Source: K189A clade bacterium
Lineage (GTDB): Bacteria > Pseudomonadota > Gammaproteobacteria > Pseudomonadales > Azotimanducaceae
Direction: 5' to 3'
Assembly (NCBI GenBank): GCA_902631405.1
Contig: CACOYI010000005.1
Coordinates: 1 to 64,000 of the forward strand
Length of the DNA stretch: 64,000 nt
The stretch's first letter is position 1. Every line of letters begins with the position of its first letter. The position numbers and the translations under genes are program-made. Positions 39,603 through 49,417 of the stretch are shown here, in pieces. The notes beneath the pieces are model-generated. The model saw only the letters and a list, made by a program, of their open reading frames with translations. It was not told where the DNA came from and did not search any database.

Positions 39603-39679
<77 letters not shown>

Positions 39680-39708: not shown

Positions 39709-42147
39709 ATGAGAAGACTTTTAACGGCAGGAATAACTCTTTTCCTTCTCAGTTCTTGTGGAGACGGAGGTGGCGGTGGTTCTTCTTCAGCGGATAGTTC
39801 AACTAGTTCTGGCCCATCTGGTGGAAGCGGCTCATCTGGTGGCACGACACCGAGCAACGCCCCACCCGCCTTTTCAAGTAGCTCCTCCTTCTCCGTAGTC
39901 GAGAATAACACTGCGGCAGGAACCATTGAGGTGGATGATGCAGATTCTAACGACACACTAGCGCTGAGCATCTAAGGCGGGACGGATGCTGATCTCTTTG
40001 AGCTGGGTGTTTGTAATGCAAGTAGGTGTACGAGTAATTCACTCAGGTTTAAGACAGCCCCCAATTTTGAGGCGCCAGGTGATGCATCTGGCGATAATGT
40101 CTACGAGGTGACCGTCGGTGCATTCGACGGAACTCTCACGGTCACGCAGGACTTATCTATTTCGGTATCGAATGCGGTGGAAGGCAGGGTCGTAGATGCA
40201 CCGCTCTCCAATGCCACAGTCTGTTTGGACGTAAACGAGGACTCTGAGTGCGGGGCAGATGAAGGCAATGTCAGTTCAGATAGTCAGGGCTACTATGCGC
40301 TAGCAGAAACAGAAGCCCAGTCAGGTTTTGAACAAAGAGTTCTATCGATTGGCGGTACAGATATTTTGACTAATAAGGAGCTTCCCAGCCTTGCTCTTAT
40401 AGCTGAAGTGCCTGCTGATCCTTCGCAAGCAGTAGCGGTAACACCTTTAAGCACAGTGGTGTCGGTCGCTACAGATCCAGCCTCTGTATTAATAGCGCTT
40501 GGCTTTCCAGAAACAGTCACGCCCGACCAGATTACGAGTATCGATCCATGGACTGTAGCAACGGATAGTTCTGATTCTTCAAGCGAATTCGAAAGTTCAG
40601 CTGCATTGGCAGAAAGTATTGGGATTACGACATCTGAATTACAGGATGTTGCTGAGAATGTAGTCACCACATCCGTTCAAATAGCTAATCTGATACAGAC
40701 AGCAGACGCCGTGGTAGCCGACACAACGACATCCGGCGTACAGAGTGATGCTGAGCGTGCAGCCATGATTACCAGCACGGTGACCAAAGAGCTTGTCGAA
40801 ACAATTGACGCCGCAGTTGCTTCAGCAGGAAGTGCAGCCGAGGCCAGCGTGGATCTGGGTGATGCCGCGGTTACGAACGAGGTATTGCAGGAAACGGCAG
40901 AAGAATCAGCAGCATTAATTGTCGAGGAAATCGAAGAAAAGCAAACAGACGGTACTCTGGATCTTTCCGATACCAATGACGCGACGGTAGCGGAGATCCT
41001 CCAGATTAAAGAAACGCAGGAAGTGATCACTCAAACAGGGCTTGACAGAGACCAATCAGAAAACATAAAAGCAGTTGCCACAACTGCGGCCGAAACCAAT
41101 GCACTTATTGAAACAAAAGTCGCTGACGTGGGCGTCGCTGTTTTGACCACCGCATCCTCTGCGGAGGATATTGCCGGAATCGTAACCAATACCACTGTAT
41201 TAGCTGAGCAGTTGGTTACCGGTGAAATCACGACAGAAACTTATACCACTTCGTCAGATGTAGATGCACAAGCCAGTGCAAGTGTTGGGCTTAATGACAA
41301 GGTGGACCAATTAACAGTTGATACTGACGGAGATGGTGTTCTCGATATTAATGATGCGTTCCCCAATGATGCGAATGAAACATCAGATACCGATGGAGAT
41401 GGCATCGGTGACAAAGCGGATGCGTTTCCCAATGATGCAACCGAAACAGTAGATTCCGACGGCGATGGTGTTGGTGACAATGCGGATGCCTTTCCTTCGC
41501 TCGCTACCGAGACAACTGATACAGACTTAGACGGTGTAGGCGATAATGCAGATGCCTTCCCCAACGATGCGACGGAGACGCTGGACTCTGATGGAGATGG
41601 TGTCGGAGACAATGTTGACGCATTTCCCAATGATGCAACCGAAACATTAGATACCGACGGTGATGGTGTTGGCGATAACGCGGACACTGATACTTTTTCC
41701 AAGAAACAGATTGTGACCCCAGATTCTTTATCCATAACTATGCCGAGCGACGCTGATGACGAAGTCACGTTATCTCTAAACTACCAAACTAACCCCGTTT
41801 CGGTCAGAACGACGGGCATCGGAGTGAAAATCTTCTTTGATAGCAGCAAGGTAACGTTCACTTCACTCGTCATCGAATCTGATGAAGATCTCCTTCAGGC
41901 AACGATAAACTCCGCTGACATCCAGAATGACTCAAATAATCTGGATACGGATGAGCTAACAGATAAGTTCGCGAATGTCGCCTACGTATCATTCACCGGT
42001 GAATTTGCGGTCCCTAGTACACCGCTATACACAATAAGCTTTAAAGCCACTGATGCTTTTAACTCTGGCGCCACTCAGATCAATTTCACACTTAAGACAG
42101 CACAGGAGTTTAAGGGCGAAGAAAGCAGCGTAACCTTGAGTTATTAA
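39709..42147 (+). pseudogene. TSP3-repeat, cohesin-like lipoprotein interrupted by in-frame TAA
   Basis: The reading frame is a single gene of 812 codons except for TAA at 39973-39975. Before it lie a lipoprotein signal with lipobox LSSC, a Gly/Ser linker and a cadherin-like stretch (SFSVVENNTAAGTIEVDDADSND). After it the domain goes on in the same frame (GGTDADLFELGVCNA), then a carboxypeptidase-regulatory-like segment (VEGRVVDAPLSNATVCLD), a long Ala/Thr/Glu-rich region, six thrombospondin type 3 calcium repeats (DTDGDGVGDNADAFPNDATET) and a C-terminal cohesin-like beta domain (VKIFFDSSKVTFTSL ... LYTISFKATD). The family pattern suggests TCA (Ser) was ancestral. Nonsense mutation, readthrough or sequence error are all possible. 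Confidence 0.8.
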
Positions 42148-42284
42148 GATAGTGTCTCAATCGACTTGGACGGGCGTGCTCTCCTACGACCCCATGATCC
42201 TTTGAGAAGCGCTGATTTTCTGAACGAGCTCTTTACCTACCGCCCACTCACTACCTTTTGTTCTCGAAATCGTTTGCTTCGGAT

Positions 42285-42899
42285 TCAATCACTTGGTGGT
42301 TCTGGCTGGTCTAGCGGCAACCTCGTCTTAATGTAATCCTCTATCTCAGTTGGTGTCGTCCTCGTCGCATCCCCACCGACCGCGCCATCAATCAAGGAAT
42401 CCCCGCTAAACCCAAACAAATATCTGATGATCAACAATCCATCAGTGAGCGGTTCTACATACCCATCGCCATCCACGTCTATGCTCAGATCAATTCCGCA
42501 AGATGCTGGGGCTTCCGCACACGCAGAAATTTGAGACTCCATAGCAGATGCCACTGCTGAGTCTTTATCACCAATGGTTATAAGTCCGAAGCTGGAAGGG
42601 TCGTTCAGCACAGCATTGTTATCGCTCGCCCCGTCTGAATTGGTATCTACCGTCTTGCTCGCATCGCTAGGAAAAGCATCGGCATTATCTCCAACACCAT
42701 CACTATCCGTGTCTTTAGTCTCCGAAGCATCATTAGGAAAGGCGTCCAATGTATCTAGGACGAGGTCACCGTCTGAATCTCCGAAGATAGAGGATCCGAA
42801 GGTTCCGCTCCCTAATGGAAAGGCCACTGATGAAAGCGGCAGGAACGCCACAATAGGGAGCGCTAACTTGATTAAAAAGCGGACTAGCTTCGAGGACAC
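42285..42899 (-). CDS. secreted TSP3-repeat protein with dockerin-like module
   Basis: The 204-residue protein starts with a basic stretch and a hydrophobic signal peptide (LIKLALPIVAFLPLSSVAF). Two to three TSP3 calcium repeats follow (DSDGDLVLDTLDAFPNDASE, DTDSDGVGDNADAFPSDAS). The C-terminal part contains DVDGDGYVEPLTDGLLIIRYLFGFSGDSLIDGAV, a calcium loop plus helix like the first half of a dockerin. A second, weaker copy ends in TPTEIEDYIKTRL. It begins 12 bases after the beta-helix gene and is convergent with the cohesin-like lipoprotein gene. Binding between the two products is an attractive inference only. Confidence 0.75.
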   Translation of the reverse strand: MSSKLVRFLIKLALPIVAFLPLSSVAFPLGSGTFGSSIFGDSDGDLVLDTLDAFPNDASETKDTDSDGVGDNADAFPSDASKTVDTNSDGASDNNAVLNDPSSFGLITIGDKDSAVASAMESQISACAEAPASCGIDLSIDVDGDGYVEPLTDGLLIIRYLFGFSGDSLIDGAVGGDATRTTPTEIEDYIKTRLPLDQPEPPSD

Positions 42900-42911
42900 C
42901 CTATTCTCTCC

Positions 42912-44231
42912 CTACCAAGGCAGCTCCCCATCGACCCGCCCCGCGGGCGGAGTCGTGAAACGTTTCGGCAATTCAGCCGACTTAGTATCACGATCCTGTC
43001 TCGCCATCATGTCCTTCTGCATGCTTGAACTCGAGGATGAAGGAAAAGCTGAATCGATCAGAGACTTCCAGGCAAATCTATCTAGACACCCGTTCCCGTC
43101 GTTGTTTTGCATGGAAATTGCAGCAATATTCACGTAACTGGGTCCTGTGCAAGTGATTCTGCTCGCCTCTATTCCAGAATTTTCGTTCCAGATCGTCAGG
43201 GTCCCCCCTTCGTTCACTGCTATCGAACTCGTATCGCTCAATATTGTGTTGCCCCCTATCGTTAATGTGGAGCTTTCTAGGCTTATGTCGCCATCGATAG
43301 AAACAGTTTCGTTTATGTTATTGACCCAAGCCTGCCCACCTTTTTGAAGTCGTATTGCTGTGGGTGCGGCAAGTTTTCCATCGCCTCGCAATGATAATCG
43401 AAATGTCCCACCATAAAAGGTTGAAATGCCAAAATTATTTCCTTCTATCTTTGCAGTTCCGGTGATATTAGCCATTGCCACACCATTAAACTGTATACCT
43501 GTATCCACTCCCTCTATCAGTGAAGTTTCATCGTTACCTCCTATGTACGCGGCAGCACCGTTTTGAATAAAGACACCATAGGGGTTGCCACTTTCTCCGT
43601 CGCCCTTTATCGAAACGTTAGTTAGGTCGCCATTTGAAGAGCGAGAAAACAAAACGCCCCAAGAGTCATCTGCTCCCATCTCTATATCGATATCGTTGAT
43701 GTAGAGACCGTTACCGAAACTCGACACGAGCCCAGCTATGAAATATTCTCTATCGGCAACTAATTTTCTGGGAATCAATTTAGCTCTATTTGAGGGGTTA
43801 ACTGTCCTATCCGAAATAAGAGCAACAACCTGATTTTTGGGCTGAACCATATTGACAACAACTTCGTCGTTTTCCCCAACTTCTTCTATGAAGCGGTACG
43901 CACCAAAACAACTACCCGTCAGTAAAAAAATCATGTAGTCCTCATGGACGTGAGCGTGATATGCCTCGATCAACGCAGACTGATTTGCAGAGCAGTCGAT
44001 CGTCTTCACGACGGCCCCGCTCTCATCAGAATTCGCCCATCGGGCGTTAGCTACAATGTTTGCGATATCAGCCTTCGTTTCTACTATCTTATCGATCAGA
44101 TAGTTGTTGTTTGTGTTGAAATCCGTGGCATCCGCTATCTCACCATTCACAAAGGTTTTTGGAATTGAAACCTCCTCCGCACTCAAAGTGATCGGTAAGA
44201 ACAACAGAAAAACAGCGATTATCCGGTACAT
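42912..44231 (-). CDS. secreted protein, predicted right-handed beta-helix
   Basis: The 439-residue protein has a signal peptide (MYRIIAVFLLFLPITLSAEE). It then has FVNGEIADATDFNTNNNYLIDKI, which resembles an N-terminal motif often found in bacterial secreted and tail-fibre-like proteins. From about residue 190 the chain is built of short beta-strand turns (NGLYINDIDIEMGADDSWGVLFSRSSNGDLTNVSIKGDG, GIQFNGVAMANITGTAKIEGNNFGIS) typical of a parallel beta-helix. The last 60 residues are Ser-rich and charged. No catalytic residues of a polysaccharide lyase were identified. It is followed closely by the dockerin-like gene, so they are probably co-transcribed. Confidence 0.65.
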   Translation of the reverse strand: MYRIIAVFLLFLPITLSAEEVSIPKTFVNGEIADATDFNTNNNYLIDKIVETKADIANIVANARWANSDESGAVVKTIDCSANQSALIEAYHAHVHEDYMIFLLTGSCFGAYRFIEEVGENDEVVVNMVQPKNQVVALISDRTVNPSNRAKLIPRKLVADREYFIAGLVSSFGNGLYINDIDIEMGADDSWGVLFSRSSNGDLTNVSIKGDGESGNPYGVFIQNGAAAYIGGNDETSLIEGVDTGIQFNGVAMANITGTAKIEGNNFGISTFYGGTFRLSLRGDGKLAAPTAIRLQKGGQAWVNNINETVSIDGDISLESSTLTIGGNTILSDTSSIAVNEGGTLTIWNENSGIEASRITCTGPSYVNIAAISMQNNDGNGCLDRFAWKSLIDSAFPSSSSSSMQKDMMARQDRDTKSAELPKRFTTPPAGRVDGELPW

Positions 44232-44401: not shown

Positions 44402-45487
44402 CTACCCCTTGATGAAATCTGCAAGTAGACGAGATAGCTCTGCGGGGCGCTTCCATTGATAGAAATGTCCTCCACCGATATGTGGAGCACTTTCCGCGTT
44501 AGGCGCCATTTTAAGAACATCATCCTCAATCCCATTCGTAACCGGGTCATCCCCCGCAAAAACCGATAAAAAAGGTTTTTGTGATGTCGCAAAGAATTCT
44601 CGAGCTGCTTTTTGATCCTCTAGAGAGGAATCCGGTAACGTCGGGACATGACTCGGCATAGCCCTTGGTCCCATCTTAAAAGACGGGTCTGGAAATGGAG
44701 CTTCGTATGCTCTAAGCAGATTAGTAGCAAAGGGCGAAATTTTTTCTAACCCCAGACGCTGAAAAAGATAGTGAGCTGCGATCGCTAGTTGAGATCTATT
44801 CTCCATTTGAAAAGAGCAAAGCAGTCCAATGGGCAGATTTTCCGTATCCCAACAAAACTTTTGCCAATACATAAATTTGAGAGCAGGGCTGAAATTCTCT
44901 TTTTCCTCACCGCTCAAACTTGCCCCATCCATTTCACCGACCTCTTTGGCCATTGAGAATAGGGTCAATTTTGGTCCGTTTTTTCGAAATTCCTGGACCT
45001 GCTTAATAACCTTCTCAGAGACATCCGGGTTGTAGGGCAAACCTGTATTGCCCATCGAAATTTTATCAAAGCGATCGGGCTCTCTCGCCACCATCCTAAG
45101 TCCAATCAAACCACCCCAGTCTTGACCGAAGAATGTTAAACCGCTGAAGTCATTTTCGCTGAGCCACGCCGTCATCCAGTCCACCTGATTTTGATAGCTG
45201 TAGTCTTCCCTGGCAGCTGGCTTGTCTGACTTCCCATAGCCGGGAAGGTCCGGGGCAATTACCCGAATACCCTGATTAACAAGATGAGGCACCATTCGAG
45301 CATAAAGATAGCTCCAAACTGGTTGTCCATGCATTGCTAATAGAATCGGCCCGTCTCGAGGTCCCTCATCGATATGGTGGATTCTCAAATCTGATCCGTC
45401 TTTGGTTTTAATCGTGGTGTAGCACGGCTCAAAGGGATAGTCTTTTAGGTTCTCGAATTGCTCGTCTGGGGTGCGAAGGATTTCCAT
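44402..45487 (-). CDS. haloalkane-dehalogenase-like alpha/beta hydrolase
   Basis: The protein matches haloalkane dehalogenase subfamily I: MHGQPVWSYLYARMVPHLV supplies the oxyanion and halide-binding part, the nucleophile Asp is in TFFGQDWGGLIGLRMVAREPDRF with the conserved Trp next to it, and the catalytic His is in APHIGGGHFYQWKRPAE. At 361 residues it is about 50 longer than usual; the extra sequence lies in the cap (about 175-240, EVGEMDGASLSGEEKENFSPALKFMYWQKF). Epoxide hydrolase or other ester substrates remain possible. A GST gene lies nearby but in a separate unit. Confidence 0.82.
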   Translation of the reverse strand: MEILRTPDEQFENLKDYPFEPCYTTIKTKDGSDLRIHHIDEGPRDGPILLAMHGQPVWSYLYARMVPHLVNQGIRVIAPDLPGYGKSDKPAAREDYSYQNQVDWMTAWLSENDFSGLTFFGQDWGGLIGLRMVAREPDRFDKISMGNTGLPYNPDVSEKVIKQVQEFRKNGPKLTLFSMAKEVGEMDGASLSGEEKENFSPALKFMYWQKFCWDTENLPIGLLCSFQMENRSQLAIAAHYLFQRLGLEKISPFATNLLRAYEAPFPDPSFKMGPRAMPSHVPTLPDSSLEDQKAAREFFATSQKPFLSVFAGDDPVTNGIEDDVLKMAPNAESAPHIGGGHFYQWKRPAELSRLLADFIKG

Positions 45488-47614: not shown

Positions 47615-49417
47615 ATGGCTATACCTACAAAAGAAGAACTGGGCTTTGACCCCGACGCATTGAGAGATAAATACCGGGTCGAACGTGATAAACGACTTCG
47701 CGAGGACGCGAATGATCAATATAACGAGATCAAAGGCGAGTTTAGTAATTTTATTGAAGATCCCTATATAACCGAGGATATTGACAGGGAGCCACTCACG
47801 GACGAGGTTGAAGTCGCAATAATTGGTGGCGGATTCGGTGGCTTGATTGCTGGAGCACGCTTGAGTGAGCTTGGCTTTGAAGACATCCGCATCATCGAAA
47901 AAGGCGGCGATTTCAGCGGCACATGGTATTGGAATCGATATCCTGGAGCCGCCTGTGACACCGAGGCATACATCTATCTCCCTCTTTTAGAAGAACTTGA
48001 CTACGTTCCATCCCAAAAATACGCGCACGCTCCGGAGATACTGAGTCACAGCAAAAATATCGCGGAGAAATACGGTCTCTACGAGAACGCTTGCCTACAA
48101 ACTGAAGTAACCGGAATGCAGTGGGATGAAAAAGAGTCCAAATGGGTGCTACAGACAAATCGACAAGACCGATTCAAAGCAAAATTTGTCATAATGTCTA
48201 ACGGGCCGCTTCACCGTCCCAAATTACCGGGCATCGAGGGCATCAATTCTTTCAATGGTCACGCTTTTCACACCAGTCGGTGGGATTATGAGTATACGGG
48301 CGGGGATTCCAATGGGGCTCTGGAAGGACTGCGCGACAAGAGAGTGGCGATAATTGGGACCGGCGCCACCGCTGTCCAGTGCACACCTCACGTTGGGGAA
48401 GCGGCCAAGCAGTTATATGTTTTCCAAAGGACACCCTCCTCTATCGATGTCAGAGCAAATCGAAAAACAGATCCAGAATGGGCTGCGAGCCTCAAACCGG
48501 GCTGGCAAAAAGAGAGGATGGATAATTTCAACATCCTTTGTTCAGGAGGAGTCGTTGAAGAAGATCTCGTTAAGGATGGATGGACCGAGATAATTCGTAA
48601 TCTCATTTCGATGGCCAACTACCGGGGAGAGGATACGAATTGGGACGAAGTGCCTCAATTAATGGAAATAGCTGACTTCCAAAAGATGGAACAAATAAGG
48701 GCCAGGGCTGCGGAGTTGGTGAAAGATCCGAAAACCGCAGAATCACTCAAGCCTTATTATCGACAATTCTGCAAAAGGCCCTGTTTTCACGATAGCTATT
48801 TACAAACCTTTAACCGCGAAACGGTCCAATTGGTCGATACAAATGGAGAAGGAGTCGAGAGAATTACCGAAAGAGGCGTGGTTGCTGGCGGAAAAGAATA
48901 TGAGGTCGACTGCATCATATTTGCCACGGGCTTTGAGGTAGGCACTTCTTATGTACGAAGATCAGGCTATGACGTTACCGGCTCGGACGGCATAAATTTA
49001 AGCGACAAGTGGGCTGAGGGCATGAGAACCCTGCATGGCGTGATGACTAGTGGCTTTCCTAACCTCTTCATCATTAGTAACTCTCAGGCGGGCTTTACAA
49101 CTAACTTCCCTCACGCGATGGATGAGACTTCCCAACACATCGGATACATTCTTACCGAATGCAGGAAAGATAACCTCGCCTCAATCGACGTCGAAAAAGA
49201 AGCGGAGGATAAATGGGTAGAAGAAATAATAGGCGTTTCCAGATTTGCCTCAGACTTTCAGGAGTCATGCACCCCAGGTTATTACAACAATGAAGGCAAG
49301 CCCAACCCAAAAAGCGTGCAAAACGGACCCTATGGCAAAGGCTCAAGGCCGTATTTCAGAATCACCGCAGCCTGGCGCGAGGAAGGAAATATGGCCGGCA
49401 TCAAAAGAAATAAGTGA
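47615..49417 (+). CDS. Baeyer-Villiger-type flavin monooxygenase
   Basis: This FAD/NADPH enzyme inserts oxygen next to a ketone, giving an ester or lactone. The 600-residue protein has the FAD site VAIIGGGFGGLIAGARLSELG, then DFSGTWYWNRYPGAACDTEAYIYLPLLEEL. The BVMO fingerprint is FNGHAFHTSRW (residues 213-223), and the NADPH site is KRVAIIGTGATAVQCTPHV. A long N-terminal extension of about 65 residues precedes the FAD domain. GGAGGAG lies before the ATG. The SDR gene overlaps its stop codon by four bases, so they are translationally coupled and probably act on the same substrate (alcohol to ketone to ester). Confidence 0.93.
   Translation: MAIPTKEELGFDPDALRDKYRVERDKRLREDANDQYNEIKGEFSNFIEDPYITEDIDREPLTDEVEVAIIGGGFGGLIAGARLSELGFEDIRIIEKGGDFSGTWYWNRYPGAACDTEAYIYLPLLEELDYVPSQKYAHAPEILSHSKNIAEKYGLYENACLQTEVTGMQWDEKESKWVLQTNRQDRFKAKFVIMSNGPLHRPKLPGIEGINSFNGHAFHTSRWDYEYTGGDSNGALEGLRDKRVAIIGTGATAVQCTPHVGEAAKQLYVFQRTPSSIDVRANRKTDPEWAASLKPGWQKERMDNFNILCSGGVVEEDLVKDGWTEIIRNLISMANYRGEDTNWDEVPQLMEIADFQKMEQIRARAAELVKDPKTAESLKPYYRQFCKRPCFHDSYLQTFNRETVQLVDTNGEGVERITERGVVAGGKEYEVDCIIFATGFEVGTSYVRRSGYDVTGSDGINLSDKWAEGMRTLHGVMTSGFPNLFIISNSQAGFTTNFPHAMDETSQHIGYILTECRKDNLASIDVEKEAEDKWVEEIIGVSRFASDFQESCTPGYYNNEGKPNPKSVQNGPYGKGSRPYFRITAAWREEGNMAGIKRNK

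Follow-up and report, generated by a model that had tools for sequence, protein, structure and literature searches.

A candidate non-cellulosomal cohesin-dockerin surface-docking system in marine gammaproteobacteria

Modules resembling cohesin and dockerin have for years been reported outside cellulosomes, but how they work there has stayed unclear. The published idea closest in concept to the genes described here is the planctosome, which was proposed for the Nemodlikiaceae, freshwater Planctomycetes, and which involves cohesin, dockerin, TSP3 and HYR domains and M12B peptidases (PMC6461901). Archaeal cohesin-dockerin proteins, known from Archaeoglobus and ANME archaea, are also non-cellulosomal, with as many as five cohesins in some ANME proteins (PMC9012536). 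In the marine gammaproteobacterium Saccharophagus degradans, two dockerin-like open reading frames (ORFs) and six with distantly cohesin-like modules stand unexplained in the account given of them (PMC2386152). Here we analyse a 64,000-nucleotide stretch of contig CACOYI010000005.1 (hereafter the window) from a K189A clade bacterium of the family Azotimanducaceae, in which a lipoprotein frame ending in a cohesin-like domain lies beside the genes of a secreted TSP3-dockerin-like protein and of a second secreted protein. Together with the neighbourhoods of both modules in related genomes, this locus points to what is probably a non-cellulosomal cohesin-dockerin surface-docking system of marine gammaproteobacteria.

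As in the planctosome, cohesin and dockerin modules occur here in bacteria without evidence of cellulose degradation, an anchoring protein combines TSP3 with cohesin, and HYR domains accompany cohesin. Dockerins are found with M12B reprolysin-like peptidases there and with M12-type peptidases here (L064, L105). The anchors differ: that of the planctosome is a lamin-tail-domain protein with P-domains, neither of which was found among the proteins scanned here, whereas the candidate anchor in our genomes is either the MrtJ/JDVT-CTERM pair or a lipobox. The phylum is also different, and the assembly is hypothetical in both cases. The type I cellulosome of Clostridium shares with the present genes a socket and plug recognised by profile similarity, surface anchoring, which here is putative, and few scaffolds against many dockerin proteins. 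Unlike a cellulosome, with its several-cohesin scaffoldin, cellulases and carbohydrate-binding modules (CBMs), the proteins examined here carry at most one cohesin-like domain each, and no glycosidase or CBM matched among the dockerin proteins scanned, which are a subset of all; the modules also lie below Pfam cut-offs, and the dockerin has one canonical calcium loop. The archaeal proteins resemble ours in their non-cellulosomal use of the pair and in their variable cargo, and differ in domain of life and in the number of cohesins that ANME proteins can reach. For the S. degradans ORFs, which we compare by description only, the account in PMC2386152, as far as it concerns them, describes no anchoring system or neighbourhood.

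The candidate anchor has its counterpart in the MrtJ/JDVT-CTERM system (Haft 2024, cited in PMC11980579), a two-gene neighbourhood in which mrtJ lies beside its JDVT-CTERM target, as it does here. Cohesin or dockerin is not mentioned in PMC11980579. No link between JDVT-CTERM or myxosortase and cohesin was found in the literature searched, which did not extend to the 2024 MrtJ paper and a 2009 survey of non-cellulosomal modules, and priority is uncertain.

Co-occurrence, adjacency and the MrtJ/JDVT-CTERM pair

We examined 151 genomes of the family and 294 further genomes of the order. In the family, the cohesin-like module was detected in 14 genomes and the dockerin-like module in 23, and 13 of the 14 cohesin-positive genomes carried both (Fisher p = 7e-12; p = 0.001 at genus level). 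Since the genomes are related, these p-values are optimistic, and the one at genus level should be preferred. In the rest of the order, all three cohesin-positive genomes, which belong to one other family, also have dockerin modules, found there in five genomes (p = 2e-6). The initial annotation had read the locus as a possible surface assembly in which the lipoprotein offers a calcium-dependent docking site to the dockerin protein, the two genes being expected to occur together in relatives. Both modules exist, and the co-occurrence prediction holds, with the corrections given below. Within a genome, cohesins number 1-4, whereas dockerin modules mostly number 6-25 (1-3 in a few genomes), and the window's own genome gave 12 dockerin-module matches. 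In the window's genus, dockerin is present in the same three of 11 genomes as MrtJ, which either exceeds its cut-off or is cut short where a contig ends, and cohesin is found in those three, in the third by a refined profile only.

The genes are also neighbours. Among the 20 loci where cohesin is encoded by a separate gene, 14 include a dockerin gene at a distance of at most 5 kb, the expectation being 0.97 (P = 5e-15); for ten representative cohesin loci, the count is eight (expected 0.42; P = 1.5e-10). This is a favourable outcome of the neighbourhood check that the initial annotation had suggested. Expected counts were derived from module numbers and genome sizes; cohesin loci were assigned manually from maps, and loci cut by contig ends were scored as lacking a dockerin. 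The list of 20 takes in G142, which was reached through MrtJ, and G135, where the neighbour is a cohesin-dockerin fusion. The two genes converge in the window, diverge in G305 and G365, and share a strand in G032, G056, G075, G088 and G346, and the two modules are also fused in one protein in G051, G096, G105, G135 and G143. The three-gene layout with a lipoprotein, which the initial annotation knew from no described system, occurs in the window only; what recurs is a dockerin gene adjoining a cohesin gene, in many cases together with JDVT-CTERM and mrtJ.

In relatives, the cohesin-like domain is often N-terminal in large proteins that contain HYR, Calx-like and choice-of-anchor U domains and end in JDVT-CTERM. 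Three of five such ends tested exceeded the 27-bit cut-off of the JDVT-CTERM model (NF033191), the others scoring 25.9 and 26.5 bits. The gene mrtJ (NF033192), which encodes a small intramembrane protease, adjoins seven of these cohesin loci, with all seven products over the cut-off. A JDVT-CTERM target with mrtJ beside it, the arrangement that marks the MrtJ/JDVT-CTERM system, is thus present for the cohesin proteins of relatives; in G142, the dockerin gene comes first, followed by the cohesin-JDVT-CTERM gene and then mrtJ. The window's own genome has a similar locus on another contig, C48 (L053 1-4030), consisting of a truncated mrtJ, the gene of a 1116-residue cohesin-JDVT-CTERM protein and a dockerin remnant. 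The C48 cohesin is 52% identical to that of the window and belongs to an uninterrupted protein, and the remnant is a 55-residue ORF in which a signal peptide is fused to the final half of a dockerin module.

The dockerin-bearing proteins are diverse. They include a beta-lactamase-family serine hydrolase (L056/L073), the M12-type peptidases mentioned above, FG-GAP and TSP3 proteins (L052, L054) and collagen-like proteins (L095 9582-10733, L096 6741-8726). In the latter, from two genomes of another family, the dockerin-like module is followed by collagen-type repeats, and the gene is divergent from a cohesin gene.

Profile and model evidence for the two modules

The C-terminal domain of the window lipoprotein is all-beta and, judged by its sequence profile, cohesin-like. 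For the profile comparisons, reference cohesin and dockerin alignments were assembled from query sequences, which were checked by near-identical or strong PDB matches, and from the chain sequences that those searches returned; both modules were compared with shuffle, reversal and beta-domain controls. In hhalign, the cohesin-like family aligned with type I cohesins over 104 columns with a score of 26.2 (P = 1e-3), a value reached by none of 150 column-shuffled controls (mean 10.8, maximum 18.2). Other beta domains in these proteins (HYR, Calx-like and anchor-U) did not exceed a score of 16.8, and their alignments covered no more than 21 columns. Against type II cohesins, the family did not rise above shuffled profiles, six of 150 scoring as high. 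Direct phmmer and hmmsearch comparisons of both modules with the PDB returned nothing relevant, and at E <= 1e-5 Pfam Cohesin matched in none of the 249 genomes of a phylum sample.

In its alignment with true dockerins, the dockerin-like module matches the first repeat alone, and none of 150 shuffles scored as high. Its single calcium loop carries one inserted residue, and its second half is unusual; the module occurs singly in the window and usually as a tandem pair in relatives. The AlphaFold (AF2) model of the module is confident, with a predicted local distance difference test score (pLDDT) of 84 and a predicted template-modelling score (pTM) of 0.71, and dockerins rank first and second of 350,542 PDB chains in a Foldseek search with it. 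This ranking was set aside as proof of the fold, with E > 1. Taken together, these results moderately support the dockerin-like nature of the window module.

The locus in the window

The secreted TSP3-dockerin-like protein of 204 residues (42285-42899, - strand) is encoded convergently to the lipoprotein frame, as the initial annotation had stated. It consists of a signal peptide (~42822-42899), TSP3-like loops (~42600-42779) and the dockerin-like module (42315-42491; DVDGDGYVEPLTDGLLIIRYLFGF), in which one 13-residue calcium loop and a helix are followed by a degenerate second half. Upstream of its gene, with a gap of 12 bp and in the same direction, lies the gene of a secreted 439-residue protein (42912-44231, - strand), and the two are probably co-transcribed. 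The initial annotation had called this protein a beta-helix; its secretion and direction are confirmed, while the beta-helix was assigned from the sequence pattern, with no Pfam family and no relevant PDB relative. A 54% identical protein is encoded in G143, a genome of a different genus, directly upstream of the gene of a secreted TSP3-dockerin protein of 320 residues whose N-terminal layout is that of the window protein, and the contig ends beyond this pair. Although rare, being found in two of the 151 family genomes and in one of 15 in the genus of G143, the pair has thus been conserved at least once.

The lipoprotein of the initial annotation, with six TSP3 repeats and a cohesin-like end, proved to have its lipobox, repeats and C-terminal domain, but not one intact ORF. 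Its N-terminal fragment (39709-39975, + strand) starts with MRRLLTAGITLFLLSSC and comprises a signal peptide, the lipobox LSSC (Cys codon 39757-39759), a Ser/Gly linker and the start of a cadherin-like stretch, all named from the sequence alone; a Pfam scan of the fragment gave no match. It ends in a TAA (39973-39975), the one stop of the frame, which separates the lipobox from the remaining protein. After this stop, the frame is open through 723 codons (39976-42147), encoding a helical, low-complexity region, six TSP3-type calcium-loop repeats with a 66-nucleotide period (~41314-41697; Pfam TSP_3, E = 2e-5 for the remainder of the frame) and the cohesin-like domain (41698-42144). Since the two other frames of this stretch contain 47 and 78 stops, it is one gene with one stop, reflecting either a recent pseudogene or a sequence or assembly error in this metagenome-assembled genome (MAG). 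No C-terminal sorting signal was found on the window lipoprotein, so that it is not itself a MrtJ/JDVT-CTERM target. In G027, too, the cohesin-like domain is cut, by an in-frame TAG (L103 8371-8373), for which assembly error or decay is possible.

A tRNA-Arg gene (TCT anticodon, ARAGORN; 39603-39679, + strand) lies directly upstream of the lipoprotein frame. tRNA genes are common insertion sites. No convincing att-like repeat for insertion at this tRNA-Arg was found, a 15-nucleotide near match (87%) at 44503 being weak, and a promoter scan gave no more sites than shuffled sequences. On the other side, enzyme genes adjoin the cluster at 44402-45487 (alpha/beta hydrolase, by Pfam) and 47615-49417 (a flavin monooxygenase-like ORF, recognised by inspection).

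Alternative readings and the proposed docking system

Several observations weigh against the docking system. The modules score below the curated Pfam cut-offs: for Cohesin (PF00963; 24.1 bits), one of 17 members matches, with E = 0.098, and the window domain does not match; for Dockerin_1 (PF00404; 22.9 bits), weak matches were obtained for nine of 24 members, the best with E = 0.0052, and the window module scored 13.7 bits. A type I dockerin has two repeats of a calcium loop plus helix, and the second half of the window module has no canonical calcium loop. The two top-ranking dockerins in Foldseek came with E > 1 and low template-modelling scores. Structure models, a check proposed in the initial annotation, supported the dockerin-like module and left the cohesin fold unconfirmed, the AF2 model of the window domain (11 sequences; pLDDT 55, pTM 0.45) being too poor for this purpose, with no cohesin among its listed Foldseek matches. 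The Ig folds that head those matches were set aside in view of the same pLDDT. As for distribution, profile A1 finds no cohesin in ten of the dockerin-positive genomes, one of them (G142) carrying a divergent one; in G027, a cohesin is present and dockerins are absent; and MrtJ exceeds its cut-off in six genomes of genus g35 (L140-L145) that lack dockerins, no JDVT-like or cohesin neighbour being recognised at these MrtJ loci. Adjacency could partly be due to shared islands of secreted-protein genes. Finally, in a bacterial lipoprotein the lipobox is fused in frame to the mature protein, whereas here the TAA intervenes, and the window copy may therefore display nothing.

This last point is the basis of an alternative to which we give a substantial but less than even chance, namely that the window locus is a decayed remnant with a lipoprotein pseudogene, and that the products of the dockerin and beta-helix-like genes, if they function at all, do so with the cohesin-JDVT-CTERM protein of C48, whose uninterrupted frame and 52%-identical cohesin fit this idea. 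On the other hand, with 723 open codons after the stop, the decay would have to be very recent, and consensus errors are common in MAGs, this one being 73% complete. Decay of this kind would be limited to the window copy and does not conflict with a docking system in the group as a whole. The docking interpretation of the initial annotation is partly supported, by co-occurrence, adjacency and the gene pair kept in G143, and weakened for the window itself by the stop and by a three-gene layout without parallel.

It is unlikely that the two modules are independent adhesion or calcium-stabilised units, co-located in islands of secreted surface proteins and not binding each other. Both are found alongside TSP3, HYR and Calx-like domains, which are common in surface adhesins, and the Pfam scores and the ten dockerin-positive genomes noted above agree with this idea. 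However, the pairing recurs in convergent, divergent, same-strand and fused orders and in two families, far more often than the 0.97 loci expected, and each module scores specifically with one half of a known binding pair. Convergent resemblance of another beta-sandwich (Ig- or CBM-like) and a diverged EF-hand repeat is quite improbable, since the Ig-fold matches of the low-confidence model and the failure to match type II cohesins are set against a whole-domain alignment to type I cohesins, lower and shorter scores for other beta domains, and first and second ranks, though not significant, of dockerins for the confident dockerin model.

In the cohesin-dockerin docking system that we favour, a few surface-anchored proteins per genome would each carry one cohesin-like socket, and a larger set of secreted proteins, with one or two dockerin-like modules, would be held at the cell surface through a calcium-dependent cohesin-dockerin contact. 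A common anchor would be C-terminal, with the MrtJ protease encoded next to the socket protein processing its JDVT-CTERM signal. The window would represent another form, in which a lipoprotein with a C-terminal cohesin-like socket stands beside a secreted TSP3-dockerin protein; the C48 protein could serve the dockerin set in place of this interrupted socket. Of this picture, the sequences, domain order, co-occurrence, adjacency and the MrtJ/JDVT linkage come from computation, while binding, its dependence on calcium, location at the surface and the cohesin fold itself are inferred. A more specific proposal, which in our estimate falls just short of even, is that the MrtJ/JDVT-CTERM pair exists to mount on the surface one cohesin-like socket that captures the dockerin-tagged secreted set, the same socket being also lipoprotein-mounted in the window's genome.

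Since a candidate anchor, a list of candidate cargo and conserved neighbourhoods, some in near-complete genomes, are at hand, the idea is directly testable. Under the more specific proposal, one dedicated sorting enzyme and its one target would govern whether an entire secretome is kept at the surface. The docking idea would also explain why the single-target MrtJ/JDVT-CTERM system exists, and would show how some marine bacteria may stop their secreted peptidases from diffusing away.

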